NCBI RefSeq assembly: GCF_900168055.1
Contig: NZ_FUYS01000017.1
Span: forward strand, 1 to 45,997
Reading direction: 5' to 3'
Length of the DNA stretch: 45,997 bases
DNA from: Parapedobacter luteus
Lineage (GTDB): Bacteria > Bacteroidota > Bacteroidia > Sphingobacteriales > Sphingobacteriaceae
The stretch's first letter is position 1. Each line of letters starts with the position of its first letter. Positions 1 to 20,481 of the stretch are shown here, in pieces. The translations under genes were made by a program, and so were the position numbers. The notes under the pieces were generated by a model. That model saw only the letters and a list, made by a program, of their open reading frames with translations, was not told where the DNA came from and did not search any database.

Positions 1-584
1 GCCGCTACCAGCAGCGAGTTCGTTTTGTCCGTGGCGTAAGCCATGATGATCGATACGATAATACATAGCAGGACGAAAATATGAAGTCCGCCAAATTGGT
101 CAAAGCTGTCGAAAATAAGCAGGTGCCAAAATCCCCAAAGTATGCCGGTGATGATGCCTTTCAGCCAAAAGGGTGTAGTACTCAATTTGTCATTTAGAAA
201 CCCACGCCATGCGCTTTCTTCAAAGAGGTCGTAAATCAACGTCGACAAGCACGTTATAAATGCCCAGAGGTGCGGGTTGACGCCGAGATTATTGGTGAAT
301 CCGACGATGGTATAGGCGATTAAAAAAATACTGCTAAAGAGCAGGCTGGCCAGCGGCCTGTTACCAAAAAGCGTAGTCCGCCTTTCTGTTTTGAAAAGGC
401 GGTAAGCGAGGATGCTGGCGAGCAACAACCCGATGCCGTGGTTCCAATTGAAAGGAACCTTGAGGTCAAACAACCGTACCCAAACTTCCCTGATTACATT
501 CGGAAACTGGATTAGCAAATACGTTAGTCCACAGGCCAGCAGGTAAAAGAGGGCGATATTGGCCCATTTTATTTGGTCATTCAT
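1..584 (-). CDS. CPBP-family intramembrane metalloprotease (partial, C-terminus beyond left edge)
   Basis: An open frame read from an ATG at 584 to the window edge gives about 194 residues of a very hydrophobic protein. It shows the CPBP/Abi (Rce1-like) signature: EESAWRG (the EExxxR motif), then GFWHLLIF (the FxxxH motif), then a further histidine in GGLHIF. These are the glutamate and histidine residues expected to hold the catalytic metal in the membrane. Family members cleave prenylated or other membrane-associated substrates, or act in bacteriocin immunity; the substrate here is unknown. The start codon overlaps the stop of the upstream permease by 8 bases (ATGAATGA), so the two are very probably translationally coupled. 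The last one or two membrane segments and the stop lie outside the window. Confidence 0.85.
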   Translation of the reverse strand, partial: MNDQIKWANIALFYLLACGLTYLLIQFPNVIREVWVRLFDLKVPFNWNHGIGLLLASILAYRLFKTERRTTLFGNRPLASLLFSSIFLIAYTIVGFTNNLGVNPHLWAFITCLSTLIYDLFEESAWRGFLNDKLSTTPFWLKGIITGILWGFWHLLIFDSFDQFGGLHIFVLLCIIVSIIMAYATDKTNSLLVA

Positions 585-5349: not shown

Positions 5350-5394
5350 GGCTTTAAGCAATTAGCAATGAGCTTCCTGTATGATGCGGAATGC

Positions 5395-5410
5395 CCGAAT
5401 ATCGTTCCAA
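5395..5410 (-). promoter_or_regulatory. Putative sigma-54-type promoter of the permease/CPBP operon
   Basis: On the minus strand the sequence reads TTGGAACG-ATAT-TCGG. The -24 half matches TTGGCACG in seven of eight bases; the -12 half is weak because GG replaces the usual GC. Its support comes mainly from position: it lies 52 bp from the same paired palindromes as the similar element at 20378-20393. Confidence 0.45.
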
Positions 5411-5461
5411 AAATATAAGAGGCTGTTTTTTAGTTTTTACCCCTTGAAAGGGCGCGTGAGG

Positions 5462-5498
5462 TGTTCGGAACCGGACACCGTCTGTTCGATATCGGACG
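5462..5498. promoter_or_regulatory. Tandem 16-bp palindromic activator sites upstream of the permease operon
   Basis: Two near-palindromes, TGTTCGGAACCGGACA (5462-5477) and TGTTCGATATCGGACG (5483-5498), lie 21 bp apart start to start, which is two helical turns. They match the consensus TGTyCG-n4-CGgACA and have counterparts with the same spacing at 20445-20481. The arrangement fits enhancer-like sites for a dimeric, HTH-bearing sigma-54 activator. The identity of the regulator is inference. Confidence 0.6.
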
Positions 5499-5649
5499 GT
5501 CTTAAGCAGAAAAGGCTGCGAACTATTGTGAAAACCTTTTGTTTTGGAAACAACGCTGCATTTTATGTGTTTATAATCACGGAAACCGTGTAAAAAGCAC
5601 TGCTTTTTTCTTGAATCATCGGTGCTGGGTACGATATCTGGACTAAAAC

Positions 5650-6714
5650 ATGGAAGATTTACAACTTTTTTTTGCAAATGCTCCCACATGGCTGTGGAAC
5701 TTGGTTTTGTTTGGGTTGGCTGTCGCTGTCGGATTGTTATTCAAACTGATAATGATTCCTGTTATCCGTTGGAAAGCTGTTGACGACGGACGATATTCGC
5801 TTTTCCGATCAGCTGTACGGCATTTAAATAAAGTGATTAATGTGTTTTTGCCGATTTTGTTTCTCAATGCCTTAAAACCGTTTATGCGATTATCGCCCCG
5901 ATGGGCAGGGGTAGTCGACCAGGTAATTGAAATTTTGTTTATGGTGTGTTTCGCCATCATCGTCATCCGTATCATCCGCATTGCGGAAGATAATGTCAAT
6001 CACCGGTTTGACTATCACGCAGCGGATAACCTCAAAGCGCGTAAAATCCGTACACAGACCCAATTTATCCGGAAGCTATTGGTTGTTTTGGTGGTGGTGG
6101 TCACGCTTGCAACGGTTTTGCTGACCTTCGAGAGCATGCAGAAAATCGGCGCGGGATTGCTTACCGGCGTAGGGCTTGGTGGTATCATTATCGGCTTTGC
6201 GGCTCAAAAATCATTGGGGAACCTGTTGGCGGGATTCCAAATAGCTTTCACGCAGCCCATCCGCATCGATGATGTGTTGGTAGTGGAGGGTGAATGGGGA
6301 AAAATTGAGGAGATTACACTGACCTATGTAGTACTTAATATTTGGGATAAGCGGCGCCTAATTTTACCTATTCAATATTTTATCGAACGGCCGTTCCAAA
6401 ACTGGACGCGTACGTCGGCCGAGATCCTGGGTACGGTATTTATCCATACGGATTTTACGGTATCCGTTGACGTGGTGCGTGACGAGCTCACACGGTTGCT
6501 GACGGGGCATGAATTGTGGGATGGCCAGGTCAATGTCGTTCATGTGACCGATGTCAAAGAACAGACCATGGAAATCCGAGCATTAATGAGCTGCCGTAAC
6601 TCTGGTGAGGCGTGGGAACTGCGGTGCTATGTGCGCGAAAAGCTAATTGCCTTCTTACAGGAGCGTTATCCGCAAAGCCTTTCGCGTACCCGTGTCGAGC
6701 TGGTTGAGCATTAA
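5650..6714 (+). CDS. Mechanosensitive ion channel, MscS family
   Basis: This 354-residue inner-membrane protein has hydrophobic segments at about 17-38, 63-80, 90-110 and 142-160. The glycine- and alanine-rich MscS pore helix follows at about 166-200 (GAGLLTGVGLGG, GFAAQKSLGNLLAGF). Next comes the beta domain (QPIRIDDVL, GEWGKIEEI) and a soluble C-terminal alpha/beta domain from about residue 255. Members open under membrane tension and release solutes on osmotic downshock. The gene is divergent from the permease operon and shares a 300-bp intergenic region with it. No convincing TAnnTTTG promoter was found before it, and a large inverted repeat follows it. Confidence 0.9.
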   Translation: MEDLQLFFANAPTWLWNLVLFGLAVAVGLLFKLIMIPVIRWKAVDDGRYSLFRSAVRHLNKVINVFLPILFLNALKPFMRLSPRWAGVVDQVIEILFMVCFAIIVIRIIRIAEDNVNHRFDYHAADNLKARKIRTQTQFIRKLLVVLVVVVTLATVLLTFESMQKIGAGLLTGVGLGGIIIGFAAQKSLGNLLAGFQIAFTQPIRIDDVLVVEGEWGKIEEITLTYVVLNIWDKRRLILPIQYFIERPFQNWTRTSAEILGTVFIHTDFTVSVDVVRDELTRLLTGHELWDGQVNVVHVTDVKEQTMEIRALMSCRNSGEAWELRCYVREKLIAFLQERYPQSLSRTRVELVEH

Positions 6715-6756
6715 GAAGACCATGGAAGGATACCAACGCGAGCATGAATTTCTGCT

Positions 6757-6833
6757 TGTTTACAGCTATTGGATTTTGGCCTAAGCGCGTGAACGGAGTG
6801 AGCGTGCCAGCCAAAATCCAATAGCTGTAAACA
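6757..6833. repeat. 24-bp perfect inverted repeat (large stem-loop)
   Basis: The arms at 6757-6780 and 6810-6833 are exact reverse complements: the left arm contains TTTACAGCTATTGGATTTTG and the right arm CAAAATCCAATAGCTGTAAA. The 29-nt loop can extend pairing through GCGCG (6785-6789) with CGTGC (6803-6807), leaving TGAACGGAGTGAG as the apex. There is no T-tract on either side, so a simple intrinsic terminator is unlikely. It could be a dispersed palindromic (REP-like) element or an RNA-stabilising hairpin after mscS. Confidence 0.85.
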
Positions 6834-6881
6834 TCGTGAGTCGCTCAAAATCTGAAATTTGTTGCGCACCAAGTTGTAGTA

Positions 6882-6912
6882 TTGGTAATACAAATCACTT
6901 TGGTTAGTTTTG
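6882..6912 (+). promoter_or_regulatory. Bacteroidota-type housekeeping promoter for the sigma-factor gene
   Basis: TTG at 6882-6884 and TAGTTTTG at 6905-6912, separated by 20 bp, fit the TTG / TAnnTTTG consensus. The element ends 57 bp before the sigma-factor start codon. Confidence 0.6.
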
Positions 6913-6969
6913 CGTACCCGTAATGAGACACTAGCTAAGCGCCAACGAATTTAACTGCCAAAGGTAAAG

Positions 6970-7554
6970 ATGGACGATCGTGACCGTATTAATGACCAGA
7001 CCTTGCTGAAGGCGCTCTGTGCTGGTGATAAAAAGGCGTTTACGGCGATCTATGAAGCGTATCATGCTAATTTGTATGTGTATGCGTTCAAGCTCGTAGC
7101 CGATGCGGACGAAGCGGCAGATATCGTGCAGGACGTGTTTATCTATATTTGGGAGAAACGTGTCGAACTCTTGATACGAGGGCCTTTGCTTCCTTATCTT
7201 TATCAATGTGTCAGGCATCGGTTCTTAAACCTGACCGATCATCGCAAAGTACAGGAGAAGTTTGCCAATTATGTACAGCATGGTATAGCCAATGGCGTGG
7301 ATACCATCAGCAGCCATATCGCAGAGAAAGAACTGATAAGTTACCTGGATAGTGTGGTCGCAGGGTTCTCCAAGCGTATGGGGGAAGTGTTTCTTCTCAA
7401 ACAGGAGGGGTTGAGCAATGAAGAGATAGCAGATCGCCTGCAATTGTCTGTAAAAACCGTAAAAAACCTATCAAGTGAATCAATAAAACGTCTTAAACTG
7501 AAATTAAAGCGGATCGTTATCGTGTTTTTTTCGATAATTCTGTTGCTTTTTTAA
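6970..7554 (+). CDS. ECF RNA polymerase sigma factor (FecI-like)
   Basis: This 194-residue ECF sigma factor has region 2 at about 20-85 (FTAIYEAYHANLYVYAFKLV, then DEAADIVQDVFIYIWEKR). Region 4 lies at about 125-175 (LKQEGLSNEEIADRLQLS, then KTVKNLSSESIKRLK), forming the helix-turn-helix for the -35 element. The hydrophobic tail VIVFFSIILLLF is common in Bacteroidota FecI-like proteins. It is followed 51 bp later by its FecR partner and then by an STN-containing SusC, so it is expected to drive the susC/susD pair when the receptor binds ligand. Confidence 0.9.
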   Translation: MDDRDRINDQTLLKALCAGDKKAFTAIYEAYHANLYVYAFKLVADADEAADIVQDVFIYIWEKRVELLIRGPLLPYLYQCVRHRFLNLTDHRKVQEKFANYVQHGIANGVDTISSHIAEKELISYLDSVVAGFSKRMGEVFLLKQEGLSNEEIADRLQLSVKTVKNLSSESIKRLKLKLKRIVIVFFSIILLLF

Positions 7555-7605
7555 AAAAAATAGGAAAAAAATCGGGATTTTTTAATGGGTTCGCTTCCAT
7601 AGCAA

Positions 7606-8781
7606 ATGAAGGCCAGGATGCCGGAACGCATGGAACATAACAGGGCAAAAGAACTTTTGGAAAGGTACAGGTCAGGCCTGTGCTCAGCTGAAGAGCGGGA
7701 AATGGTGGAAAGCCACTTTGCGCGTTATATCAGGGACAACGACCAACTGCCTAGCCTCGACGATTGGATACGGGTTGAACGGAATATGTATGAAGCGATG
7801 CAAGCGCGGATACACCGGCCGCCGTTCAACGGGCGGCTATTGTGGATGTATTCGGCCGCGGCTCTGGTGATCGTATCGGCGGTAGCGTTGCTGTTTTATT
7901 CACTGGTCCGCCAGCCCTCAACGGAGCAGCATGTTGCTGGCAGTCGTCCAGCGGATGTTGATCCGGGAACGGAACGGGCGGTGCTAACATTGGCCGACGG
8001 GAGGAAAATCGCGTTGGACGAGGCGGGTATAGGGCAATTGGCGACAGAGGGCGGAGTCATCATCAATAAAACCGCTGACGGCCAGATTTTATACGAAGCA
8101 AACGAACAGGAAGGAAGTGCGCTCGCGTTCAATACCGTGGAAACGCCTAAGGGAGGGTATTTTAAAATTGTCCTTCCGGATGGAACGGGCGTGTGGCTTA
8201 ATGCTGCATCGTTGTTGAAATATCCTAACCACTTCTCGGGGCATGAACGTCGTGTGGAACTTCAAGGAGAGGCCTACTTCGAGGTGGCAAGCCAATATTC
8301 GGCGGCCTCTGAGCGCGTCAAAATGCCTTTTGTTGTCGCGACGGCGACACAGGAGGTGGAAGTACTGGGCACGCAGTTTAATCTTAACGCTTATCCGGAC
8401 GAGCCGGACGTCAAAACGACGTTGTTGGAAGGGACTGTGCGCGTTTTCGACCATGAAAGGCGGTTTTCCAAAACCCTTCGCCCTGGTGACCAGGCGGTGT
8501 TCACAGGCCGGGAACTTTTGACCCGCCCTGTGGACACGGAGGCGGCAGTAGCTTGGAAAAATAACCTGTTCCTGTTTTATCACGCTGACCTGGCGACCAT
8601 CATCCGGCAAATCGAGCGCTGGTATGACGTCGAATTTGATTATGCGAGCCTTCCTAAAACGGGGAGGCTTTATGGCGAGATTTCGAGGGACAAAAAGCTT
8701 TCGGTAGTGTTGGCAGCGCTAAGTGAATACACCGGACTGCACTTTGATTTGGAAGGAAGGAGGGTTGCCGTGATACCGTAG
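7606..8781 (+). CDS. FecR-family anti-sigma factor
   Basis: The product is a 391-residue single-pass protein. A short cytoplasmic N-terminal region (about 1-75) would bind the sigma factor. A transmembrane helix follows at about 82-105 (YSAAALVIVSAVALLFYSLV). The periplasmic FecR domain shows PKGGYFKIVLPDGTGVWLNA, then GEAYFEV and GTQFNLNAY. A C-terminal DUF4974-like domain (AAVAWKNNLFLFYHADLATI) ends the protein. It transmits the signal from the SusC STN domain to the sigma factor. A later ATG at 7630 (MEHNRAKELL) is an equally credible start. The 141 bp to susC contain only a weak 5-bp stem and a T-run near 8877. Confidence 0.88.
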   Translation: MKARMPERMEHNRAKELLERYRSGLCSAEEREMVESHFARYIRDNDQLPSLDDWIRVERNMYEAMQARIHRPPFNGRLLWMYSAAALVIVSAVALLFYSLVRQPSTEQHVAGSRPADVDPGTERAVLTLADGRKIALDEAGIGQLATEGGVIINKTADGQILYEANEQEGSALAFNTVETPKGGYFKIVLPDGTGVWLNAASLLKYPNHFSGHERRVELQGEAYFEVASQYSAASERVKMPFVVATATQEVEVLGTQFNLNAYPDEPDVKTTLLEGTVRVFDHERRFSKTLRPGDQAVFTGRELLTRPVDTEAAVAWKNNLFLFYHADLATIIRQIERWYDVEFDYASLPKTGRLYGEISRDKKLSVVLAALSEYTGLHFDLEGRRVAVIP

Positions 8782-8922
8782 ACCTTGACTCACTATTACC
8801 GTACGCTAAGCTGCCTAAGCAGTGGCTGGAACCGCTACCAACAGTCCCAGCCGTAGTCTGGCTGCATTAGATCTGATTTTTTACGAATAGAACAGAACTC
8901 CATAACCAAACATAACAAATGT

Positions 8923-11900
8923 ATGAAATATGTTTCTTACCTCGGGGCTGCCGTGTGTAATTTGACGCGAGTTATTGCCTCCTGCAGCGAGCAGCTCCGT
9001 AGATGCTCATTAGCCATGAAACTAACCCCTTTATTTTTATTGGTTTTCGCGTTGAATACCCTGGCGGTCAACAGTCTTGCCCAAAAGGTGAACATCCACG
9101 CGAACAATACGCCACTTGAACGTGTTTTGCGTGAAATCAGGAAGCAAAGTGGCTATGACTTTTTATTCCGTGAGGAGTACTTAAGCCAATTCAGACCGGT
9201 GACCATAAACGTGTCGCAGATGGAGATCGGTGATTTATTGCCTATCTTGTTTGCCGACCAGCCCTTTGACTATAAAGTCAACGAAAAACTGATTACGCTC
9301 AGTCCTAAACGTCGGGCCGCCGGCCCTCTGGAGGTAACAGCCCAGACGAGCGTCCAAGGTACGGTAAGGGATAGCCTCGGCAATGCGCTGGCAGGCGTGA
9401 GTGTGCATATTGCAGGCACCAATAAAGGTGTGGTCACCGATCAGGCTGGCCGGTTTTCGATAGCAGACGTTCAGTCGGGTGCGACCTTGGTCTTTTCGTC
9501 AACGGGATACCAGACCCGTGAAATTGTTGTGGGTACGCAAACAACCTATGATGTCGTGTTATCCCAGGTCTCCCAAGAAATAGATGAAGTGATCGTCGTC
9601 GCATACGGTACCGCAAAAAAGCGCGACTTCACAGGCTCCGTTGCGTCTATTTCGGCTGACAACATCAAACAGCAGCAGGCTGCCACTATTTCGCAGGCGC
9701 TGGAAGGAGCGGTAGCCGGCGTACAGCTAAATACGGAGAGTGGACAACCCGGCCGAGATGCTCGTATCCGTGTACGGGGTATGGGAAGCATTAATGCGTC
9801 AAACGATCCGTTGATTGTCGTGGATGGTGCGGTTTCCAACTTACCATTGTCTTCCTTAAATCCCGATGATGTGGAATCGATTGTGGTGTCGAAAGATGCC
9901 GCCGCCAACTCCATTTACGGTTCGCGCGCCGCCAACGGATTAATCCTCGTAACGACAAAAAAGGGCAAATTGGGGAAACCGAAAATAGGGGTAGACTTCC
10001 GTTGGGGCGGTGTCAGTCAAGGTGTGCCAGATTTCGAGGTGATACGCGATCCGGCAACCTATTATGAATATACATGGAAAGGCATATATAATTATATGCG
10101 ATACATACAAGGGCATACCGACGAGGACGCCCGCCAGTATGCAAGCAGCAACCTGTTCACGGCAAATGGGGCAAGTAATACAGGCAATGGGCTTGGCAAT
10201 TACATGGCCTACCGGATTCCTGAAGGAACGACCTTGATTGATCCCGCCACGGGCAGGATCCGCTCGGATGCGCAACTGCTTTATCACGATGATTGGCAGG
10301 ATTATTTCCTGAAGACGGCTTTCCGCCAGGAATATAATGCAAACGTCAGTGGCGCAACCGAAAATACGGATTATTTTGTATCACTGGGTATGTTGAAGAA
10401 TCCATCGTTTGTCATGGGCTCGGATTTCGACAGGCACTCGGCAAGGTTGAACTTGAATACCAAGATCGCTCCGTGGCTGAAGGGTGGAGGCAACATGTCC
10501 TATTCAAAAACCTATACCAACGAGCCGCAGGGGTATACCGGAGGTACAGTGAATACCAACATTTTTACTTTCATGAATCTTTTTGCGCCGACATATCCGA
10601 TTTACGCGTATGATCGCGATGGCAACGTCATCCGGGATGCCAATGGAAACCCAACGTTTGACCTCGGGACCAACCAGACGTATTCGCCGTACGGCCCGAC
10701 AAGCCGCAACGCATTCAATGGATATTCGCCGGCAGTCTATTTTGAGAAAGACCTGACGGAAAATACCAACGATTATTTTTCTGGAAGGGGATACCTGGAA
10801 GCAACGTTTTTGAAGGACTTTACGTTGAAAGCGGACATCTCCGTAGATAATCAATACCGCCAGTACAGGGCTTATGGAAATAACGAGAGCGGTACTGCGG
10901 CGCGTGACTACGGGGGGACGATCGAGGGGTGGTGGGCCAAGGCCATGACCATCAATGCCACGCAATTGCTGACGTGGAACAAAACATTCGGCCAACACAA
11001 CGTTGATGCGTTGTTCGGGCATGAGTTTAATAAGTACCGGTATGATGAGATGCGAGGCACCAAATACCGGATGTTTGCACTGGATAATCCAAGTATGGGC
11101 AACGCCGTGAGGGTGTTGTCGTTGAATGGCCAAGAACGTGAGAATGCCTTGGAAGGGTACTTCAGCCGGTTTAACTACAATTTTGCGGGCAAGTACTACT
11201 TTTCGGCGAGCCTGCGGACTGACGGTTCATCTTACTTCCGAGGCAACCGCTGGGGTACATTTTGGTCGCTGGGCGGTGCCTACCGCATTGCCGAAGAGGC
11301 TTTCATCAAAGATAACATCGCATGGATAAACGATTTGCGGCTGCGGGGCAGCTATGGCGTACAGGGCAACAATGGGGTGCCGGCATCGACGCAATACGCT
11401 TGGACAAATACATACCTGCTTTCTGGTGTGGGCAGTATAACCGATGCGGAGTTTGCCTTGGCTGCAAACACCTGGGGCGATCCGTCGATCACATGGGAAT
11501 CGAACCAGATTCTTGATTTGGGATTGGACTTTCGTCTCTGGAACCGCTTTTATGGTACGGTAGATTACTTCCGCCGTAAAACGGTGGATATGCTGTTGGC
11601 GGTATCGTATCCGGCTTCGGCCGGCCGTTCGGGCGCGTTGCAGAACGTAGGTAAATTGTTGAATACCGGATTGGAGCTTGAACTCGGCGTGGACATCATC
11701 CGTCATGAAAACCTCCACTGGTCATTCAATGTCAATGCGTCGCGTTACCGGACCAAATTGCTGGAAATTCCTGATAACATGGGATCGCGCGACCTTGATG
11801 GGGGGTACCTTTCCGGTAACTACCTGCGCAGGGCAGGTACTGATTATTTCAACTTGTATATGTACCGGTATGCGGGCGTGGATCCGGAGACGGGGTTGGG

Positions 11901-12531
11901 CATGTTGTACAAGCGCCTGAACGAGTCTGATTTGGCCAACTATCCGGGACATGCGGCAGGCGATATCGTGACCACCACCGTAGGCTCCGAGGCGACGCGC
12001 TTTGAATTGGGTACTGCGACACCCGATTGGGTTGGCGGCGTGTCTACCAACGTGCGTTACAAAAATTTCGATATCGGTGTGGTGGCCAGCTGGCAGCTGG
12101 GCGGCAAGGTGGTGTCACGTACTTATCAAAATCTGGTTTCGCAAACCATCGGCCGTGGTGTGCACGTGGATATGCTGAACGCGTGGACGCCTGATAACCC
12201 GAATTCAAACATCCCCTTGCGTGCATTGGGTGGCACGAACTTCGGCGTGTCGCCGATTGGAGGCGGAGAGGGCCAGTATTCGGATTTCAGCCTGTTCGAC
12301 GCGGATTATTTCAACTTGCGGACAATTAACCTCGGGTATCGGTTATCGCCCGCGCTAGCCCGGCGGTTGTTCTTGGAAGGGGTACGCATCTATGTCGCAG
12401 CGGAAAATTTGTTCTTTGTTTCGGCAAAGAAGGGGCTGGATCCGCGCCAAGTGGTCGATGGTACGACCATCAACCCGTTCAACTACCCGCAAACGAAGGC
12501 GATATCATTGGGACTTAACATTAGCATTTAA
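8923..12531 (+). CDS. SusC-type TonB-dependent outer-membrane receptor with STN signalling domain
   Basis: This 1202-residue outer-membrane protein has the hydrophobic signal segment MKLTPLFLLVFALNTLAVNS starting at residue 28, behind an N-terminal extension usual for STN-type SusC proteins. The domains in order are STN (about 54-128, LERVLREIRKQSGYDFLF), a carboxypeptidase-like fold (about 143-213, VQGTVRDSLGNALAGVSV), and a TonB box and plug from about 218 (EVIVVAYGTAKKRDFTGSV, then IRVRGMGSINASNDPLIVVD). The rest is a 22-strand barrel. It forms a TonB-powered uptake complex with the SusD protein next to it. The STN domain signals to the FecR/ECF pair upstream. The ligand cannot be deduced because no hydrolase accompanies the set. 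Confidence 0.93.
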   Translation: MKYVSYLGAAVCNLTRVIASCSEQLRRCSLAMKLTPLFLLVFALNTLAVNSLAQKVNIHANNTPLERVLREIRKQSGYDFLFREEYLSQFRPVTINVSQMEIGDLLPILFADQPFDYKVNEKLITLSPKRRAAGPLEVTAQTSVQGTVRDSLGNALAGVSVHIAGTNKGVVTDQAGRFSIADVQSGATLVFSSTGYQTREIVVGTQTTYDVVLSQVSQEIDEVIVVAYGTAKKRDFTGSVASISADNIKQQQAATISQALEGAVAGVQLNTESGQPGRDARIRVRGMGSINASNDPLIVVDGAVSNLPLSSLNPDDVESIVVSKDAAANSIYGSRAANGLILVTTKKGKLGKPKIGVDFRWGGVSQGVPDFEVIRDPATYYEYTWKGIYNYMRYIQGHTDEDARQYASSNLFTANGASNTGNGLGNYMAYRIPEGTTLIDPATGRIRSDAQLLYHDDWQDYFLKTAFRQEYNANVSGATENTDYFVSLGMLKNPSFVMGSDFDRHSARLNLNTKIAPWLKGGGNMSYSKTYTNEPQGYTGGTVNTNIFTFMNLFAPTYPIYAYDRDGNVIRDANGNPTFDLGTNQTYSPYGPTSRNAFNGYSPAVYFEKDLTENTNDYFSGRGYLEATFLKDFTLKADISVDNQYRQYRAYGNNESGTAARDYGGTIEGWWAKAMTINATQLLTWNKTFGQHNVDALFGHEFNKYRYDEMRGTKYRMFALDNPSMGNAVRVLSLNGQERENALEGYFSRFNYNFAGKYYFSASLRTDGSSYFRGNRWGTFWSLGGAYRIAEEAFIKDNIAWINDLRLRGSYGVQGNNGVPASTQYAWTNTYLLSGVGSITDAEFALAANTWGDPSITWESNQILDLGLDFRLWNRFYGTVDYFRRKTVDMLLAVSYPASAGRSGALQNVGKLLNTGLELELGVDIIRHENLHWSFNVNASRYRTKLLEIPDNMGSRDLDGGYLSGNYLRRAGTDYFNLYMYRYAGVDPETGLGMLYKRLNESDLANYPGHAAGDIVTTTVGSEATRFELGTATPDWVGGVSTNVRYKNFDIGVVASWQLGGKVVSRTYQNLVSQTIGRGVHVDMLNAWTPDNPNSNIPLRALGGTNFGVSPIGGGEGQYSDFSLFDADYFNLRTINLGYRLSPALARRLFLEGVRIYVAAENLFFVSAKKGLDPRQVVDGTTINPFNYPQTKAISLGLNISI

Positions 12532-12549
12532 CTAGAATAAATTCGTGCA

Positions 12550-14088
12550 ATGAAGAAGATACGTTATATAATGCTTGGCGCCGCGTTGCTTATGGCCGGT
12601 GCGTGCAGTGATCGGTTGGATATCAATCCGACAGGCAACCGGATTACCGAGGAAGACATCCAACGGCTGGTGAAGGAGGACCCGGATTTGGTGTTGGAAC
12701 CCATGCTGAATACGATGGTGGCTGCTATCAATACTTATACGTTTGCTAATTCGGTGGATACACGCAATTGGCCGGTGATGAATATCCTGCTCAGCCTGAA
12801 AGGCAATGATATGGTGCTGGCCAACCGAAACGGAACGTGGTTGGTGAACGATTATGAACTACGGGCATACCGGGAAGAAAGCACGGCGAGGGTCGCCGTA
12901 TATTGGGGGACGCTGTATAAATATGTTTATTATGCCAATGAGATTTTGGGCTTGATACCACCGGATGTGGATTTGAACACGGCTGATGGCTCGAACGAGA
13001 AAATCATGCGGTATAAGGCGGCCGCACTGACGATGCGTGCGTTTTCCTATACGTATTTGATGTGGCTCTACCAAGATGATTACTTGCATGGCGGTGCTGA
13101 AAAACCAGGCGTGCTCTTGCACTTGGATAATAACGATCCGTTTAAAGATCGGGCGCCGGCTTCGGCGGTGTGGGCTCAGGTGATTGCGGATGCCACGGAA
13201 GCTGTACGGCTGTTTGAGGCCGCAGGGTCATACAAGACGGAAGATCGGACGGATATCGACGGCTCCGTTGCAAGTGTCGTATTAGCTCGCGCGGCGCTGA
13301 CCATGGGCGACTGGAGCACGGCTATCGCTGCGGCTGATAAGGTAATCGCTGCCTATCCCATGCTGATGAATGAGGCGCAATATACAACCTCGGGGATGAC
13401 CGTGCTGGACAACGAGGCTATTTTCGGGTATGAAGTGGATGTGAATTCAAGTAGAGGTACCTCGTCATTCCCCGGATGGATGAACCCTTGGGGAGAAGGT
13501 GGATATGGTGGTTCGCAGGGGTCATGGGTAGCTATTGACCAGCGGCTTTATGACCAGATTCCGGAAACCGACTATCGCAAAGCGAATTTCGTAAGCGAGG
13601 ACTATATCGAATTTACCTACCCCTCGTCGGGCGCAACCATCCACTATCCGAAGTATGCCAGCACCAAGTTTGCCGCTGGTATCATTTCTGGACAGACAAC
13701 CGCCTATTACCAGAACGAAATTTACATGCGGGCGTCGGAAATGCTATTGGTAAAGGCTGAAGCGGAAGCCCGAGCAGGCGATGACGAAGCCGCCCAACGA
13801 ACACTTTTTCAGTTGGTATCACAGCGCGATCCCGCTTACACCCAGTCTACCAATACGGGAGAGGCGCTGTTTGCCGAAATTCGGCTGCACCGCCGGATTG
13901 AATTGTGGGGCGAGGGCGGATTTGAGTTTTATGACAATAAACGCTGGAATCTGCCGGTAGATCGGACCGGCTCAGCGAACCATGTGTATAAGGAGGTCAC
14001 CCTGACTCCACAACGGGATTATACATTGCAGCTCCCGCTGGAAAGCGAACTGCTGCTTAATCCGAATATTACGCGACAAAATCCTTAA
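12550..14088 (+). CDS. SusD/RagB-family nutrient-binding outer-membrane lipoprotein
   Basis: This 512-residue lipoprotein has a signal peptide ending in LLMAGAC, with C19 as the lipidation site, followed by SDRLDINPTG. The N-terminal helical TPR-like region and a SusD C-terminal domain follow. RASEMLLVKAEAEARAG and the RRIELWGEGGFEFYDNKRWN segment are typical of the family. It would lie as a lid on the SusC barrel and capture ligand at the cell surface. It begins 18 bp after susC, so the two are co-transcribed. A strong bidirectional terminator follows. Confidence 0.92.
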   Translation: MKKIRYIMLGAALLMAGACSDRLDINPTGNRITEEDIQRLVKEDPDLVLEPMLNTMVAAINTYTFANSVDTRNWPVMNILLSLKGNDMVLANRNGTWLVNDYELRAYREESTARVAVYWGTLYKYVYYANEILGLIPPDVDLNTADGSNEKIMRYKAAALTMRAFSYTYLMWLYQDDYLHGGAEKPGVLLHLDNNDPFKDRAPASAVWAQVIADATEAVRLFEAAGSYKTEDRTDIDGSVASVVLARAALTMGDWSTAIAAADKVIAAYPMLMNEAQYTTSGMTVLDNEAIFGYEVDVNSSRGTSSFPGWMNPWGEGGYGGSQGSWVAIDQRLYDQIPETDYRKANFVSEDYIEFTYPSSGATIHYPKYASTKFAAGIISGQTTAYYQNEIYMRASEMLLVKAEAEARAGDDEAAQRTLFQLVSQRDPAYTQSTNTGEALFAEIRLHRRIELWGEGGFEFYDNKRWNLPVDRTGSANHVYKEVTLTPQRDYTLQLPLESELLLNPNITRQNP

Positions 14089-14100
14089 ACGTCGTTGTTA

Positions 14101-14146
14101 AAAAAAGTCGGGGTGATACGTTTTTGCGTATCACCCCGACTTTTTT
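14101..14146. terminator. Bidirectional intrinsic terminator between convergent genes
   Basis: The perfect 20-bp arms are AAAAAAGTCGGGGTGATACG (14101-14120) and CGTATCACCCCGACTTTTTT (14127-14146), with a 6-nt loop. The A-run and T-run flanks make it work in both directions. It ends susC-susD on the plus strand and the adaptor-permease operon on the minus strand. Confidence 0.95.
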
Positions 14147-14165
14147 CGATGGCGTCACCTCCCGG

Positions 14166-16544
14166 TTACTCCGTCCGTATAGCCTTAATCGGATTTTCCT
14201 GTGCCGCCCGCAGCGATTTGCCACATACCGTAACGGCTGCAATGGCGAACGCCGTAAAACCGGCCACGGCAAACACCCACCATTCGATGCCCGTGCGGTA
14301 TACATAGTTATCGAGCCATTTATTCATTATCCACCACCCCAGCGGAAACGCTACAAGAAATGATAGTCCCACTAATTTCAGGAAGTCCATGGAGATGAGC
14401 AGGATGATATGGGATACACTTGCGCCGAGTGTCTTGCGGATGCCAATTTCCTTGACCTTGGTTTCAGCGGTAAACGTAACGAGACCAAAGAGTCCCAAGC
14501 ATGAAATCAGGATGGCGATACCGGCGAATACATTGAATAGCCGGCCCGCCTGAATATCGCTTTTGTAAAGCTTGTCAAACGATTCATCCATGAACTGATA
14601 ATCAAATTCGAACTCGGCGTTGTATCGCTTCCACAGCGTTTCCACGGCGGCAATGGCCCGGGCTGCTTCTGCACCGGTGGTTTTGATATACATGCCGTTG
14701 AGTGGAACCGTGGCATCTGCAAATAATACGCAGGGGGCGATGGTTCTTTTCAAATCGGCGAAATGGAAATCCTTGACGACACCGGCGATCGTCACCGGGC
14801 GATAGCGGAACGTGATCGGTTTGCCCACAGGGTCGCTGAGCCCCATTTGCCTGACGGCGGTTTCGTTGAGGATGACATACCCCGAATCCGACGGTGTGCC
14901 GGTAAAGCCGTGCCCTTCGACTAATTGGAGATCCATGACGTCCAAAAATTGATGGTCCACGGCCATTTGGTATACCATGAAGTTGGCCATGCTGGCGGGT
15001 TTCCCTTCCCACTCAATATCACCGGTACCGGAGCCGATGTTGCTGATGTCGCCGCTGGCCGCCGTAACGCTTTTGATGCCGGGCTGATTTACCAGCTCGG
15101 TGCGCACGGCTTCAAAGCGGCTCAGGAAATTTTTTTGGTTAAATAAAAATACGTTTTCCTTATCGTAACCCAATTCCTTTTTGCGGATGTATTCGAGCTG
15201 GCGACTGATGATGATGGTTGCGATGATAAGCACTACGGAACAGGTGAATTGAAGGATGACCAGCGCTTTGCGGAACCCGTTGTTTTTGCCGATGCCTGGC
15301 AAAACGCCTTTCAAGGCCTGTGCAGGCTTGAAGGTCGAAAGTAGCAACGCAGGGTAGATGCCCGCCAATGCCACAACGGAAAGTAGGGTGCCACCAAAGA
15401 GCAACCACACCCGGGAATCAGACAGGCTAAATACCATTTCTTTGCCGGAAAGGCTATTGTAAAGTGGCATGGCCGCATAAGCAAATCCGATGGACAGACA
15501 CATCGCGATGAAGAAGACGACAACGGATTCGGTGATGAACTGCCAGAAAAGGTGGCCCCGGTTGGCCCCGACGACCTTTCGGACGCTGACCTCTTTGCTC
15601 CGCCGTGTAGACCGGGCAGTGACGAGGTTGACGTAATTGATGGATGCAATCAACAGAATGATGAGGGCAACCCAAGCAAAAATCCGTACCTGCTGCATGC
15701 CGCGCTCTTCGCCCTTACCATTGTACAGGTGAATGTCTTTTAGTGGCTGTAGGAAGTAGACAAGTGTTTTGAATAATTCTGCTTCGTTGTTTTTCCGGTG
15801 TAGGTCGGCCAGTTGGGTTTCAACAGTTTTCGGAGTTGATCCTGCTTGGAGTAAAAAGAAAGTACGATAGCTAAAGCTTCCCCATTCTTCATTAATGCCT
15901 GCACCTTCCCGATTTTCGTTGAGCAGTTCGATGGGAAGTAGAAAATCGGCCTCTATGGAGGAATTGTGCGGGAAATCAGCAATGACACCGGTCACCCGGA
16001 AGTTTCGTTTGCCATCAGGATTGTTGGGATCGAGATTGAGCACGACCGTTTGGCCCAACACCTCCTCATGACCGAAGTACTTGCGTGCCAATGTTTCGGT
16101 CAGCACGATGGAATTGTTGTCGGGAAATGGAAGTTGGCGATTGCCGGCCAACCACGCGAAATCGAACAGATGGAAGAAGGAGGGGTCGACCTGCTGCCCG
16201 GACTCAGCGAACGTACGGTTATCGTTCGGTTTGCTGATGGATGCTTCGCTGTTCGTCATCCGGCATGCGGCCTCGACGCTGGGCAATTCCGATTGGCCAA
16301 ACACCGCTAAAGGAGGTGGTCCTACAGGCCAAACGTTTTCGGAAGTGACATCGAAAGTTGTCGAAACCTGAAAAATCCGGTTGCCCTTGCTATGCATCCG
16401 GTCATAACTCAGTTCATCCCAAACCCAAAGGAGAATGAGGATGGCGGCGGAAAGACTTAGCGCCAATCCGAAAATATTAATGGCTGAATAGGCGCTATGC
16501 TTGGCAAGCGCCCTGAAAGCCGTTTTAAGATAGTTCGTCAGCAT
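14166..16544 (-). CDS. ABC transporter permease, double MacB-PCD/FtsX type
   Basis: This 792-residue protein has the same double periplasmic-domain/FtsX layout as the other three. Its N-terminal helix follows MLTNYLKTAFRALAKHSAYS. The first coupling segment is RRSKEVSVRKVVGANRG and the second AETKVKEIGIRKTLGASV. The tail NPIKAIRTE replaces the NP-x-(R/K)SLRDE seen in the others, and SRTEKR-type residues are replaced by STRRSKEVS, so this is the most divergent of the four. It is last in the operon adaptor-permease-permease, 39 bp after the preceding permease, and ends at the bidirectional terminator. The substrate is unknown. Confidence 0.9.
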   Translation of the reverse strand: MLTNYLKTAFRALAKHSAYSAINIFGLALSLSAAILILLWVWDELSYDRMHSKGNRIFQVSTTFDVTSENVWPVGPPPLAVFGQSELPSVEAACRMTNSEASISKPNDNRTFAESGQQVDPSFFHLFDFAWLAGNRQLPFPDNNSIVLTETLARKYFGHEEVLGQTVVLNLDPNNPDGKRNFRVTGVIADFPHNSSIEADFLLPIELLNENREGAGINEEWGSFSYRTFFLLQAGSTPKTVETQLADLHRKNNEAELFKTLVYFLQPLKDIHLYNGKGEERGMQQVRIFAWVALIILLIASINYVNLVTARSTRRSKEVSVRKVVGANRGHLFWQFITESVVVFFIAMCLSIGFAYAAMPLYNSLSGKEMVFSLSDSRVWLLFGGTLLSVVALAGIYPALLLSTFKPAQALKGVLPGIGKNNGFRKALVILQFTCSVVLIIATIIISRQLEYIRKKELGYDKENVFLFNQKNFLSRFEAVRTELVNQPGIKSVTAASGDISNIGSGTGDIEWEGKPASMANFMVYQMAVDHQFLDVMDLQLVEGHGFTGTPSDSGYVILNETAVRQMGLSDPVGKPITFRYRPVTIAGVVKDFHFADLKRTIAPCVLFADATVPLNGMYIKTTGAEAARAIAAVETLWKRYNAEFEFDYQFMDESFDKLYKSDIQAGRLFNVFAGIAILISCLGLFGLVTFTAETKVKEIGIRKTLGASVSHIILLISMDFLKLVGLSFLVAFPLGWWIMNKWLDNYVYRTGIEWWVFAVAGFTAFAIAAVTVCGKSLRAAQENPIKAIRTE

Positions 16545-16583
16545 CTTGTTTGTTTTTATGTGGTTGCTTCAACTGAGGCATAA

Positions 16584-18956
16584 TTACTCGTCCCGCAAGC
16601 TGCGTACCGGATTTGCCATCCCCGCTTTGATGGCTTGATAGCTGATAGTGAGTAGCGAGATAGAAATCGCAAGTACACCTGACAGCGCAAATACCCACCA
16701 TTCTACACCTATGCTATACGTGTAGCCGGCAAGCCATTTATTCATCGCATACCACGCGACAGGAGAGGCTATGACAAACGCCACGAATACCAATTTGAGA
16801 AAGTCCTTAGACAGCAAGACGGTCACGTTGAATACCGAGGCACCGAGTACCTTTCTTACACCGACTTCCTTGATCCGGCTCTCTGCGGTGAACGTGGCAA
16901 GTCCAAATAACCCAAGACAGGAAATAAAAATGGTCAAACCGGCAAATAGTGCGGCCAGTGTGCCCACCCGTTGTTCTTCCCTGAATTTTCTCGCATACGC
17001 TTCATCTACAAAACGGTATTCAAACGGATAATCCGGATTGTGGATTTTTAAAACCTGTTCGGCAATCGCTAAGTTACGTTGCGTCGAATTAGCCGGGTTT
17101 AATTTGATATGGATGGTCGTAAACCATGATTTGGGTCCGAAAACAACCAGTTGCTGTACATTTTCAAACGGAGATTCGTAGATAAAATCCTTTACCACGC
17201 CAACCACGCGCCAGTCTTCACCGTCTGCCCTCAAAATGGTATTTAACGGATCTTCCAGGCGCATCATTCTTACAGCGGTCTCGTTTAGCAAGATCGAAGT
17301 CGAATCGCCGGGAAATTGGTAAATGTCGATATCGCGGCCCATGACCAATGTTGCGCCGATGGTCTTGACAAAGTCAGCATCGGTAGCCATCCGCACGAAA
17401 TCTATTCGCTTGTCTTCTTCTGTGCTACCCGTCCAACTCCAGCCCCAGCTGTCGCTAAAACGGGTGATGATGGGGCTCATGGATTTCGTGACGGCTATCG
17501 CGGCGCCTTGGCTGATTAACTCGTTTCGGATAAGCTCATAGTTGCGTTCGATAGCCCCTTCCATGGATAGATACACGAGGTTGTCGCGGTCATACCCATT
17601 ATCTCTCGACTGTGCATATCTGATCTGTTGGGAAACAATGATGGTGGCAATGATGAGGATGATGGCGAAGGTAAATTGCAGCACAACCAGTACCTTTCTT
17701 GGGCTGACGGTGGCATGGCTGCGCTTGAACAAGCCTTTCAGTACTTTGACAGGCTTGAAAGCCGATAGGTACAGGGCCGGATAGCTGCCAGCCAATAGTC
17801 CGCAAATCACGACAAAGGAAAGTGAAAACAACCAAAATAGCGGATTCCCCAGGTCTACTGACAGGGCCTTATTCACCAAGCCGCTAAAGGCCGGCAGGGT
17901 AAGGAATACAAAGCCCAAAGCAAAGACAAATGCGATCGCGGCCAGCAACAGGCTTTCGCCCAGAAATTGGCCGATCAGTAGTTCTTTCTGTGCACCGACA
18001 ACTTTGCGGATACCCACTTCTTTTGCTCTTTTTTCACTTCGGGCGGTACTGAGGTTCATGAAATTAATGCAGGCGATGATGAGAATAAACCCGGCGATGA
18101 TCACGAATAACCGCACCATTTCAATTCGGCCGCCCGTATAATATCCATTTTCTTGTCGGGAGTACAGCCAGGCTTCCGTAAGCGGCTGGGTGAACACTTC
18201 CCGGTTTTTGTATAACGGATCATTTGCCAGGTGATCCTTGGTAATATTTTTTATTTTTTGATCGAATGCTGCGTGTGATACTCCTTCCTTCAATAACACA
18301 AACGTTGCCAGTGCATTATTTGCCCAAGAGCTATCCCGCCAACCTAATCGGACACTGTAATCCCAAGGCATCAAGTAGGCAAAATCGAAACGGGTGTTGC
18401 TTGGCAAATCTTCCAGAATGCCTGACACGGTGAATTGATCGGTACTGTCGATTTTAATGATTTTGCCCATGGGGTCGGCGTCACCGAATAGGTTTTGCGC
18501 CAGTTTTTCGGTAAGGACAATGTTATAGGTGCCGTTAAGAGCGGTTTTCGGATCGCCCTGCTTCAGTGGTAAGCTGAATGTGGTCAAAAAGCCGGGATCT
18601 GTAAATGCACCCCGATGTTTTTGTTTTTTGTCGCCCACGGTAAACAGAAAGCTGTTGAAGTCATTGTACCGGATGGCGTCTTCTACTTCGGGGTAATCCT
18701 GTTTTAGCGTAGGCGCCATGATGTTTGGTGTCCATGACCAAGCGTTGATGACGCCTTCGTTGATATCCCTATTGTTGGCGATGAAAATCCGGTCTTTCTT
18801 TTCGTGAAATTGGTCGTGACTTACTTCGTTTTGTATCCAGATTAAAATCAACATGCATGACGTCATCCCAACACTTAGACCTAAAATGTTGATGAACGAA
18901 TAGACTTTGTTGCGCACTAAATTCCGCCACGCGACTTTTATATAGTTGTGTAACAT
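16584..18956 (-). CDS. ABC transporter permease, double MacB-PCD/FtsX type
   Basis: This 790-residue protein starts MLHNYIKVAWRNLVRNK. It has the first FtsX block with NFMNLSTARSEKRAKEVGIR and the second with ESRIKEVGVRKVLGASV, ending NPVRSLRDE. It shares long near-identical stretches with the permease at 577-2925, for example GGRIEMV-(R/Q)-LF and RSEKRAKEVG-(I/V)-RKVVGA, so the two come from a duplication. It lies between the adaptor gene and the 14166-16544 permease. A short degenerate permease start is found in the 117 bp before it. Confidence 0.9.
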   Translation of the reverse strand: MLHNYIKVAWRNLVRNKVYSFINILGLSVGMTSCMLILIWIQNEVSHDQFHEKKDRIFIANNRDINEGVINAWSWTPNIMAPTLKQDYPEVEDAIRYNDFNSFLFTVGDKKQKHRGAFTDPGFLTTFSLPLKQGDPKTALNGTYNIVLTEKLAQNLFGDADPMGKIIKIDSTDQFTVSGILEDLPSNTRFDFAYLMPWDYSVRLGWRDSSWANNALATFVLLKEGVSHAAFDQKIKNITKDHLANDPLYKNREVFTQPLTEAWLYSRQENGYYTGGRIEMVRLFVIIAGFILIIACINFMNLSTARSEKRAKEVGIRKVVGAQKELLIGQFLGESLLLAAIAFVFALGFVFLTLPAFSGLVNKALSVDLGNPLFWLFSLSFVVICGLLAGSYPALYLSAFKPVKVLKGLFKRSHATVSPRKVLVVLQFTFAIILIIATIIVSQQIRYAQSRDNGYDRDNLVYLSMEGAIERNYELIRNELISQGAAIAVTKSMSPIITRFSDSWGWSWTGSTEEDKRIDFVRMATDADFVKTIGATLVMGRDIDIYQFPGDSTSILLNETAVRMMRLEDPLNTILRADGEDWRVVGVVKDFIYESPFENVQQLVVFGPKSWFTTIHIKLNPANSTQRNLAIAEQVLKIHNPDYPFEYRFVDEAYARKFREEQRVGTLAALFAGLTIFISCLGLFGLATFTAESRIKEVGVRKVLGASVFNVTVLLSKDFLKLVFVAFVIASPVAWYAMNKWLAGYTYSIGVEWWVFALSGVLAISISLLTISYQAIKAGMANPVRSLRDE

Positions 18957-19017
18957 ACTAATCTGTTTTTTTACTCCGTACCGCCATCCTGATTAAGGCG
19001 GCGGTCATGCCTACATC

Positions 19018-19072
19018 CTATCGGCATGGTTGCATGCGGTCCTAAAAGCCGTCTTGAAATCGTTTTTATCAT
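19018..19072 (-). pseudogene. Vestigial 5' end of a deleted FtsX permease gene
   Basis: One base after the adaptor stop codon, the minus strand reads an ATG (19072-19070) followed by ATAAAAACGATTTCAAGACG. Adding one A to the A-run gives M-I-K-N-D-F-K-T-A-F-R-T, which matches permease N-termini such as MLTNYLKTAFRAL. Similarity is lost after about 12 codons, and a stop follows soon after. I read it as the frameshifted stub of a third permease that once sat directly behind the adaptor. A chance resemblance or a short coupling peptide is possible. Confidence 0.5.
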
Positions 19073-19073
19073 G

Positions 19074-20327
19074 TTAGTTGCTGATTCTCAACTCTTGTAC
19101 CCTATCATACGTTTCGTAGCTTGACGTCACCACTTTATCTCCCGGCGCTAAGCCGCTGATGACTTCGTAGTAATCGGGGTTTTGACGGCCAAGTTGCACA
19201 TCCACACGGTAAGCAGTTTTTCCATCTTCGGTGAGTTTGAACACCCAGTTGCCGCCGGTTTGTTGGTAAAAGCCGCCTTTGGCGAGTAATACTGCCTTGG
19301 TTTCGTCACTGAGCGCCAGGCGGATTTGTAACGTCTGACCGCGGCGGATGCCATCAGGCACCTCGTTTACAAATTCCATGTCGACCTGGAACCGGCCGTT
19401 GGTCACCTGGGTATAAACCTTTTTGATGACTAATTTGTAGCTTTTGCCGGCAAAGGTAAATTCGCCTTCCAAATCAGGGTAAATACGGGAAATATAGTGC
19501 TCATCGATATCGGCACGTACCTTGAAACCGGTTAGCACATCGATCTGTCCAAGGCGCTCGCCTGGATTTTTGCTCTGGCCGATTTCAGCGTCAAAGGAGG
19601 TAAGCTGTCCATCGACCGGTGCCCGGAGAATGAGGTCGTCAACCTTCTGGCGCATGAGATTAAGAGCGGCTTGTGTACGCTCATACATCTGCCGGTCTTG
19701 ATTGACCTTCTGCATGGTGGATACGGAATCTTGTGTAAGGATTTGTTTAGTCAGTTCCATGCGTTCCTTTTGGTAGTTGTAATCATTGAGCGCCTGTTGG
19801 TACTCCTGAGAACCGATGGCCTTTTGTTCATAAAGGGTTTTATTGAGCTTATACACGCGTTCGGCTTCCTTGAGCCGGTTTTCCACGTCGGCCATCTGGT
19901 TGCGGTTATTGATCGACATTTGCTGGGCATTGGTTTGTGCTATTTGCGATTGGGTGAGGAGGTTAAGTACAGAGGTCTCCTGGTTTATCAAGCTCAATTC
20001 CAAATCGGTGTTGGAAAGCCGCATGATGGGATCGCCTTTTTTAAGCTTGGCGCCGTCTTCTACAAATTTCTCTTCCACACGCCCGCCCACGGACGCGTCC
20101 AAAAAAATGCTGGTAATAGGAAGTACGGTGCCGTTTACAGGGATAAATTCGCGAAAAGAATCTTCTTTAACTTCGGATATGGTGATGCGTTCGGCATCCA
20201 CATTGAGCCGTGAATTGCCGGACGTAAAATAATAACTGGCAAATATCAACGCAAGAATACCTGCCCCGCCTACAACCATCGTGATGCGTTTACTGTTCCA
20301 TCGTTTTTTCGGTAATGCTCTGTCCAT
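19074..20327 (-). CDS. HlyD/RND-type periplasmic adaptor (membrane fusion protein)
   Basis: This 417-residue protein has an N-terminal membrane anchor at about 16-34 (MVVGGAGILALIFASYYF). A lipoyl/barrel-sandwich half (ASVGGRVEEKFVEDGAKLKK) is followed by a long alpha-helical hairpin of about 100-215 with coiled-coil composition. The returning lipoyl half is LRAPVDGQLTSFDAEIGQ, and beta-barrel and membrane-proximal domains complete it. Such adaptors link an ABC or RND inner-membrane partner to an outer-membrane TolC-like channel. The start is placed at MDRALPKKRW, because the longer in-frame start at 20393 would lie at the promoter element. It is first in the operon with two permeases, and no ATPase or TolC gene is beside it. 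Confidence 0.88.
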   Translation of the reverse strand: MDRALPKKRWNSKRITMVVGGAGILALIFASYYFTSGNSRLNVDAERITISEVKEDSFREFIPVNGTVLPITSIFLDASVGGRVEEKFVEDGAKLKKGDPIMRLSNTDLELSLINQETSVLNLLTQSQIAQTNAQQMSINNRNQMADVENRLKEAERVYKLNKTLYEQKAIGSQEYQQALNDYNYQKERMELTKQILTQDSVSTMQKVNQDRQMYERTQAALNLMRQKVDDLILRAPVDGQLTSFDAEIGQSKNPGERLGQIDVLTGFKVRADIDEHYISRIYPDLEGEFTFAGKSYKLVIKKVYTQVTNGRFQVDMEFVNEVPDGIRRGQTLQIRLALSDETKAVLLAKGGFYQQTGGNWVFKLTEDGKTAYRVDVQLGRQNPDYYEVISGLAPGDKVVTSSYETYDRVQELRISN

Positions 20328-20377
20328 TTTTTCTTTTTTGTAATCAGTGGTCTGCGTGAAACCACCGACCACTTCTA

Positions 20378-20393
20378 TAAAACGCCGTGCCAA
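20378..20393 (-). promoter_or_regulatory. Putative sigma-54-type promoter of the adaptor/permease operon
   Basis: The minus strand reads TTGGCACG-GCGT-TTTA. The -24 box TTGGCACG is a perfect match; the -12 box is weak because GC is absent. It ends about 50 bp upstream of the chosen adaptor start and lies 52 bp from the paired palindromes, the same geometry as at 5395-5498. Confidence 0.55.
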
Positions 20394-20444
20394 AAATGTA
20401 AGTGTGTTTAAAACAGGTGATTGCCTGGTGTTATAAAACGAAAC

Positions 20445-20481
20445 TGTCCGATATCGGACACCTGATGTGCGATAGCGAACA
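20445..20481. promoter_or_regulatory. Tandem 16-bp palindromic activator sites upstream of the adaptor operon
   Basis: TGTCCGATATCGGACA (20445-20460) is a perfect palindrome. The degenerate copy TGTGCGATAGCGAACA (20466-20481) lies 21 bp further upstream. The pair matches the sites at 5462-5498 in sequence, number, spacing and distance to the -24 element. It probably binds a dimeric activator shared by both operons. Confidence 0.65.

Follow-up and report, generated by a model that had tools for sequence, protein, structure and literature searches.

Two minus-strand operons on contig C20 of the Parapedobacter luteus genome (G000, 4.83 Mb) are each preceded by two copies of a 16-bp palindrome of the type TGTYCG-N4-CGRACA. 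One operon begins with a duplicated FtsX permease gene and the other with a gene for a periplasmic adaptor. What are these paired sites for, and which regulator would read them? The window analysed here is the whole contig, 45,997 bp in length. A preliminary description of it had ascribed the pairs to a response-regulator-type activator of sigma-54 promoters. As argued below from sequence comparison, the pairs are very probably upstream activator sites for an NtrC-family regulator encoded on contig C7, which would drive sigma-54-dependent transcription at promoters ca. 90 nucleotides (nt) away.

Paired sites and the genes behind them

In both window pairs (sites starting at 5462/5483 and 20445/20466) the start-to-start distance is exactly 21 bp, in agreement with the preliminary description. 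The TTGG(A/C)ACG element that it placed equally far from both is also where it was said to be: TTGGAACG and TTGGCACG, read toward the minus-strand genes, both start 88 nt from the start of their pair. Two of the four window sites (5462 and 20445) match TGTYCG-N4-CGGACA exactly on the plus strand, and the other two carry one mismatch on one strand and two on the other. Counts of single sites in the window were rejected as evidence, since the 11 matches with up to two mismatches (6.0 expected) have no significance, at least 11 being found in 9 of 100 shuffles.

The genome scan for 21-bp pairs that the preliminary description had proposed retrieved 12 of them when up to three mismatches were allowed, versus none for a reversed-pattern control; the judgement that such conserved pairing is unlikely to arise by chance is thereby borne out. 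Two more pairs are spaced 22 bp, which brings the genome total to 14, two of them in the window. Nor is the palindrome scattered at random: exact single sites number 20 genome-wide versus 2 for the reversed pattern, and 17 of the 20 belong to pairs, the three lone ones (on C10, C15 and C16) being at about the control level. A matrix scan covering C18, C20 and the 20-kb pieces taken from C11 and C19 yielded no additional pairs with the filters applied; elsewhere in the genome the search used the site and pair patterns alone.

Pairs are present in all nine Parapedobacter genomes, the present one included, and in 14 of 60 relatives, every one of which belongs to the same family, while the control gave 0 in all 60. 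When the gap was left free from 0 to 30 bp in 121 family genomes (first site fixed as TGTCCG, strands merged in the count), 34 places were found, with 20 pairs spaced at 21 bp, 12 at 22 bp, one at 20 bp and one at 28 bp; the control gave 0. A search for exact pairs in 84,980 species genomes returned 75 stretches with 77 distinct pairs, a set picked without regard to gene that contains Parapedobacter loci and several from one Tannerella bin. Since only about 0.015 exact pairs are expected by chance at equal base frequencies, noise can hardly explain the matches outside the genus (in Sphingobacterium, Olivibacter, Pedobacter, Chitinophaga, Pseudarcicella, Porphyromonas, Tannerella, sphingomonads, Terriglobia, Aminicenantes and others).

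Thirteen of the 14 pairs in the genome stand ahead of genes of one MacAB-TolC-like export system. Nine of the 14 have a duplicated permease as first gene, two have an ATPase, one has the adaptor and one the TolC-type channel; the remaining pair has no pump gene behind it. C18 and C20 together encode 28 full-length duplicated permeases (770-835 residues); pair-headed runs take in 23 of them with a maximum gap of 200 bp, 25 with 400 bp and 27 with 700 bp. For the genome and the fetched relatives taken together, the pairs read do not include those of G007, some of those of G008 and that of G020. The first gene is a permease in 52 of these 79 pairs and an ATPase, adaptor or TolC gene in 21, and six pairs have no assigned first gene (L150@2001, L154, L173, L185@2073, L187 and L193). 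Each of the four families, MacB-type permease, ATPase, adaptor and TolC, thus heads or sits in a pair-headed run. In the relative G003 a single contig carries, inside 36 kb, the pairs of the ATPase, the window-type permease and the adaptor, so that C20 and C18 are probably adjacent in the present genome. Hydrolases are found amid the permease operons, namely an S15 peptidase, an alpha/beta hydrolase and an M28 peptidase (C18:109223-111097, C18:22892-23890 and window 20512-21804).

The preliminary description had placed four permeases, the adaptor and a CPBP-type open reading frame (ORF) under one activator. That a single activator would serve all pairs is proposed from the motif, spacing and promoter distance that they have in common, and the genes listed are only the part of the putative regulon that lies inside the window. 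Its gene limits need amendment in two places: 5349 (ATG) is one possible coding start of the first permease, TTG at 5361 being another, and the ORF, which we take to be CPBP-like from its EExxxR motif, is incomplete at the contig end.

Promoter element and candidate activator

All 52 pairs with a permease as first gene, the sole criterion, form the permease promoter set; the permease profile excludes C18:157829, a non-permease ORF of similar length, without effect on the counts of 52 and 48. The trinucleotide TGG is present 84-96 nt from the pair start in 48 of the 52 promoters (mean 7.4, maximum 15 in 1000 shuffles) and absent from four; in 44 of the 48 it falls at 88-91 nt. When the 48 sequences are aligned on TGG alone, a G appears at GG-N10-G in 46 and the preceding T in 45, while a G is found at N9 in 2 and at N11 in 7. 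The consensus is approximately TTTGGCRCA-N4-YTGY, the base after the -12 G being T in 22 sequences, C in 11, A in 8 and G in 7. Of two T residues located 9 and 8 nt ahead of TGG, the first is conserved in 44 of the 48 and the second in 43; they lie at about -35 from the inferred start and are perhaps an upstream contact of the sigma-54 polymerase.

Among the 77 exact pairs, TGG-N10-G[CT] occurs 30 times at 88-92 nt against 1.68 expected (Poisson P ~4e-27; this and the other P value given below overstate independence, because the counted sequences are related and include nine Parapedobacter genomes and many loci of one Tannerella bin). A second cluster lies one turn nearer, at 80-81 nt, with 5 against 0.67 expected, and 35 of the 77 pairs have the strict element at one or the other distance. 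TTGG or TGG is found at 88-91 nt in all 13 pump promoters of the present genome and the G of GG-N10-G in 11, the exceptions being the window adaptor and the C18 ATPase. The Tannerella copies are close to the textbook sigma-54 consensus (TTTTGGCACGATTTTTGCTAT). The genome encodes RpoN (PF04552 at C6, 188.5 bits), in which the stretch ARRTVAKYRE resembles the RpoN box. The GG-N10-G spacing, the preceding T and the presence of RpoN argue for the sigma-54-type control put forward in the preliminary description.

The genome encodes four strong sigma-54 activators (C7, C15:216691, C12:161327 and C15:624086). The C7 protein is the likely one to read the pairs, as judged from gene neighbourhood and co-occurrence. 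It consists of a receiver domain (76.6 bits), a PF00158 domain (221.7) and a Fis-type HTH_8 domain (50.9), and has the Walker A motif GENGTGK and the loop GAFTDA, in which the second G of GAFTGA is replaced by D. Among 54 members of the family (L055 8925-10280 and relatives), 46 have GAFTDA as this sigma-54 contact loop, 3 have GSFTDA and 3 GAFTGA; in 2 it was not found. A response-regulator-type activator had been expected, with an AtoC/NtrC-like gene to be sought near other permease clusters, and genes of this family do stand beside the pair and the adaptor gene in other genera. The order adaptor (in some loci with ATPase or permease), sites, activator (often with a kinase) is seen in L267, L268 (a pair with 2 mismatches), L270 (a single site), L089, L101, L125 and L134, and in L132 the activator gene lies downstream of TolC. 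In the pair-fetched loci L132, L101, L134, L089 and L125 the activator near the pair has the C7 protein as its best match, at 43-62% identity.

As for co-occurrence, the 75 stretches include 44 non-Parapedobacter genomes, one locus each, that were reached by the pair alone, and 42 of these hold a C7 relative at E <1e-113, a line set after the scores were known (the next lower best matches are 1e-100 in G018 and 1e-83 and weaker elsewhere). Among the 60 relatives, a C7 relative is present in 12 of 14 with the pair versus 11 of 46 without (Fisher P 5e-5), G018 with its 45% partial match (1.8e-100) being counted as lacking the activator. The recognition helix was read in 67 distinct activators with a retrieved locus, and it is of the form [TS]RxxLYRR in 54. 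Nineteen of the 67 genes have a site no more than 700 bp upstream, and all 19 encode this helix. It is lacking in L255 and L258, which are 50-52% relatives, and the other three strong activators of the genome differ from it. Self-regulation of the activator is not claimed: by eye, no convincing -24/-12 element faces the activator gene at loci with an upstream site, and no site was found at the seven nearest Parapedobacter activator loci (L203-L209).

The partner kinase (L055 10283-11602) has a HATPase domain, with no other Pfam match and no recognised sensor domain. Its membrane part seems to lie within the first 50 residues, with almost no outside loop; hydropathy gave one stretch at residues 4-32 by script, and a second helix reaching to about residue 50 by eye.

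Contrary observations and competing explanations

In addition to the relatedness of the counted sequences and the late choice of the E-value line, several observations weigh against sigma-54-dependent activation by the C7 regulator. At C25:8095-8132 two exact sites 22 bp apart have neither a pump gene nor a TGG element, and the full-length duplicated permease at C18:3073-5460 has no upstream pair. Only 11 of the 48 permease promoters have GC as the -12 dinucleotide (22 have GT), the strict element is missing at both distances in 42 of the 77 exact pairs, and both window promoters, with the -24 GG intact, have poor -12 halves. G085 and G090 contain the pair but no C7 relative at E <1e-113. Close relatives of the C7 protein are missing from G002 and G022, both of which have pairs; in four congeners of G022 one is present at 72-73%. 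Conversely, the activator occurs in eleven relatives that lack a pair (up to two mismatches), five of them with a single site in the locus around the activator gene. Two of the 42 matches, in G073 and G101, have a different recognition helix, and no site was found at the activator gene of the present genome. G002 has 5 exact sites compared with 7 to 22 in its congeners; it may have lost the activator, with the regulon decaying afterwards, or its assembly may have a gap.

The weak -12 halves about which the preliminary description had its reservation are found at both window promoters, from which transcription is predicted to start near 5384 and 20367. The permease promoter keeps the G at N10 but has CGG where the set has TGY (GG, not GC); in G003, the one relative compared, it is identical through TTTTTGGAACGATAT and keeps the -12 G as well. 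The adaptor promoter reads TTTTAT, with TA at the -12 position and no G. In five of six Parapedobacter relatives it reads TTGTAT or TTGCAT, with a GG-to-G spacing of 9 nt, and in the sixth, G002, TTTTAG, likewise without the -12 G. The 9-nt spacing is also observed at adaptor genes of Sphingobacterium (L117, L132) and of three Olivibacter genomes (L272, L274, L275), in L125, and at the adaptor promoter of Flavobacterium sp. Sd200, where the pair is about 100 nt away. Most Parapedobacter ATPase promoters show it too; in Chitinophaga and Porphyromonadaceae (L248, L136) the adaptor promoters are spaced at 10 nt. Since sigma-54 is held to require a 10-nt spacing, the 9-nt elements may reflect either tuning or something not understood. 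On the plus strand, a TGG-N10-GC match at 5545-5559, 83 nt from the start of the first pair, points toward a divergent MscS-type channel gene (5650-6714); it is possibly a second, divergent promoter and may be a chance match.

One explanation of the poor -12 halves is that the regulon is real but the window promoters have decayed and are weak or silent, the window permeases and adaptor being transcribed mainly from other promoters. The CGG of the permease promoter and the missing adaptor G, which five of six relatives keep, point that way, but the sites, the -24 element and all distances are conserved, and the recurrence of 9-nt adaptor elements in three genera of the family suggests that a poor -12 may be due to tuning. 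We regard such decay as unlikely, and it is in any case compatible with activation by the C7 regulator in the rest of the genome.

The pairs might instead serve an activator or repressor of sigma-A promoters, with TTTGG forming part of the Bacteroidota -7 box (TAnnTTTG). This box is indeed found in 10 of the 52 upstream regions (mean 2.4, maximum 8 in shuffles), but it ends on TGG in only 9 of the 48 permease promoters, for which reason the reading of TTTGG as a -7 box was rejected; the other 39 lack it, the G at GG-N10-G and the preceding T are not demanded by it, and the regulators beside the pair carry a sigma-54 activation domain. Sigma-A control is therefore very improbable.

We also give little credence to the proposal that C15:216691, C12:161327 or C15:624086 reads the pairs. 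These are the remaining strong sigma-54 activators of the genome, G002 retains pairs with only distant C7 relatives, and the activator adjoining the pair in L099, which counts among the points against the C7 protein, has C15:624086 rather than C7 as its best match. However, activators in the five loci named above best match C7, and the recognition helices of these three are unlike those of all 19 activators with an upstream site. A structural role for the palindromes, as terminators or as the ends of recombination or repeat elements, is improbable in the extreme, for although they are intergenic and the two sites spaced 28 bp in G007 together form one perfect palindrome, 33 of the 34 free-gap pairs are spaced 20-22 bp, and 73 of the 79 pairs precede one export system with a promoter element at a fixed distance.

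The features discussed are collected in Table 1. Elsewhere in the window, an extracytoplasmic function (ECF) sigma factor gene and a FecR-like gene (6970-8781) are followed by two long ORFs (8923-14088), which resemble a SusC/SusD pair in size and order; a similar ORF set begins at 26677.

Table 1. Predicted sites, promoter elements and genes; positions given without a contig are those of the window.
Feature	Position	Strand	Remarks
Activator site 1b (predicted), promoter-proximal for the 5349 permease operon	5462..5477	.	TGTTCGGAACCGGACA
Activator site 1a (predicted), distal	5483..5498	.	TGTTCGATATCGGACG
Sigma-54-like -24/-12 element, permease operon	5395..5413	-	TTTTTGGAACGATATTCGG; -24 strong, -12 weak (CGG for TGY)
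Duplicated FtsX/MacB_PCD permease, operon 1 first gene	2983..5361	-	ATG at 5349
Duplicated FtsX/MacB_PCD permease, operon 1 second gene	577..2925	-	
CPBP-like ORF	3..584	-	overlaps permease end; truncated by contig end
Activator site 2b (predicted), promoter-proximal for the adaptor operon	20445..20460	.	TGTCCGATATCGGACA
Activator site 2a (predicted), distal	20466..20481	.	TGTGCGATAGCGAACA
Sigma-54-like element, adaptor operon	20377..20396	-	TTTTTGGCACGGCGTTTTAT; -24 canonical, -12 without G
HlyD/MacA/DarC-like periplasmic adaptor, operon 2 first gene	19074..20327	-	
Duplicated FtsX/MacB_PCD permease	16584..18956	-	
Duplicated FtsX/MacB_PCD permease	14166..16544	-	
Pair-headed ATPase genes	C18:14270; C11 near 270 kb		
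Pair-headed TolC gene	C19		
Pair-headed adaptor gene	window		
Candidate activator, response regulator	G000:C7:197925-199277		followed by a histidine kinase gene

Proposed mechanism and comparison with known systems

The mechanism that we propose is of a known kind. The kinase would phosphorylate the C7 regulator, dimers of which would occupy both sites, two helical turns apart on one face of the helix, and oligomerise into an ATPase ring. The ring would contact the sigma-54 holoenzyme at the -24/-12 element ca. 90 bp away, remodel it and open the promoter. Upon stimulation of the kinase, some 27 duplicated FtsX permeases would rise together with the ATPase, the adaptor and the TolC-type channel, joint production of the components following from one regulon under one switch. 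Sigma-54 dependence, binding, co-expression and the sharing of an ATPase by the permeases are thus what we infer from the DNA sequence. As to the signal, envelope or antimicrobial-peptide stress is our guess. A more general design is put forward tentatively, and we doubt it more than we believe it: one ATPase-adaptor-TolC core would be common to some 27 interchangeable permeases under one sigma-54 two-component switch, which would make the "orphan" duplicated permeases no orphans at all, the permeases would inform the kinase, itself devoid of an outside sensor domain, of flux, and this arrangement would extend across Bacteroidota, sphingomonads and several other phyla.

No description of the regulon, the motif, the activator or the link between permeases and pump core was found among the listed literature matches, in which subscription journals are thinly covered. 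Duplicated FtsX permeases without ATPase may reach high copy numbers in Bacteroidota, two Dyadobacter genomes being reported to have 28 and 33 of them (PMC11573002), and no partners or inducer of such expanded permeases were found in the literature searched. Under one common switch they would acquire partners, a regulator and a kinase, and their power source and inducer would therefore become directly testable. The pair motif, with 77 places in 84,980 species genomes, offers a handle for similar regulons elsewhere.

The candidate regulator resembles NtrC-family activators (AtoC, ZraR, NtrC) in its receiver, sigma-54 activation domain and Fis-type HTH, in the adjoining kinase gene, and in the paired palindromic upstream sites ca. 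90 nt from -24/-12. It differs in its scores, which are 380 bits for AtoC (cut-off 714) and 370 for PEP_resp_reg (502.6), in the prevalence of GAFTDA over GAFTGA, and in that the regulon here is an export system. In the same phylum, the sigma-54 regulon of Flavobacterium psychrophilum has mapped -24/-12 promoters and envelope functions (PMC9723704); its Table 2A, a selection of chaperones, gliding genes and lipoproteins, contains no MacB-type permeases. The passages of PMC3162934 consulted make no mention of Bacteroidetes, permeases or efflux.

BceAB-BceRS combines a MacB-superfamily permease, an ATPase and two-component flux sensing (PMC5985334). Here, too, the kinase has an N-terminal hydrophobic part and no recognised sensor, and BceS-like flux sensing through a permease is suggested by this analogy; unlike that system, the present one is Gram-negative and has a sigma-54 activator and many permeases. 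According to the same review, PMC5985334, MacAB-TolC exporters are under PhoPQ in Salmonella and E. coli. They share with the system described here, which is known from its genes, MacB_PCD and FtsX permeases, an adaptor and a TolC-type channel, whereas here the permease is duplicated without a fused ATPase, the ATPase is separate, the permeases number more than two dozen, and control would be of the sigma-54 type rather than by PhoP. The darobactin exporter DarBCD is similar in having a separate ATPase (DarD, 301 bits against a cut-off of 375), an adaptor (DarC, 176 against 450) and a permease (DarB, 109-121 against 700), all of these scores being below the curated cut-offs for membership. Finally, matches to ADOP (TIGR03434, "acidobacterial duplicated orphan permease") span nearly the whole 803-position model, but the four window permeases score 267.7-343.2 bits against a cut-off of 622.3 and are thus ADOP-like only; a further difference is that here a shared control would tie the permeases to an ATPase, an adaptor and TolC.

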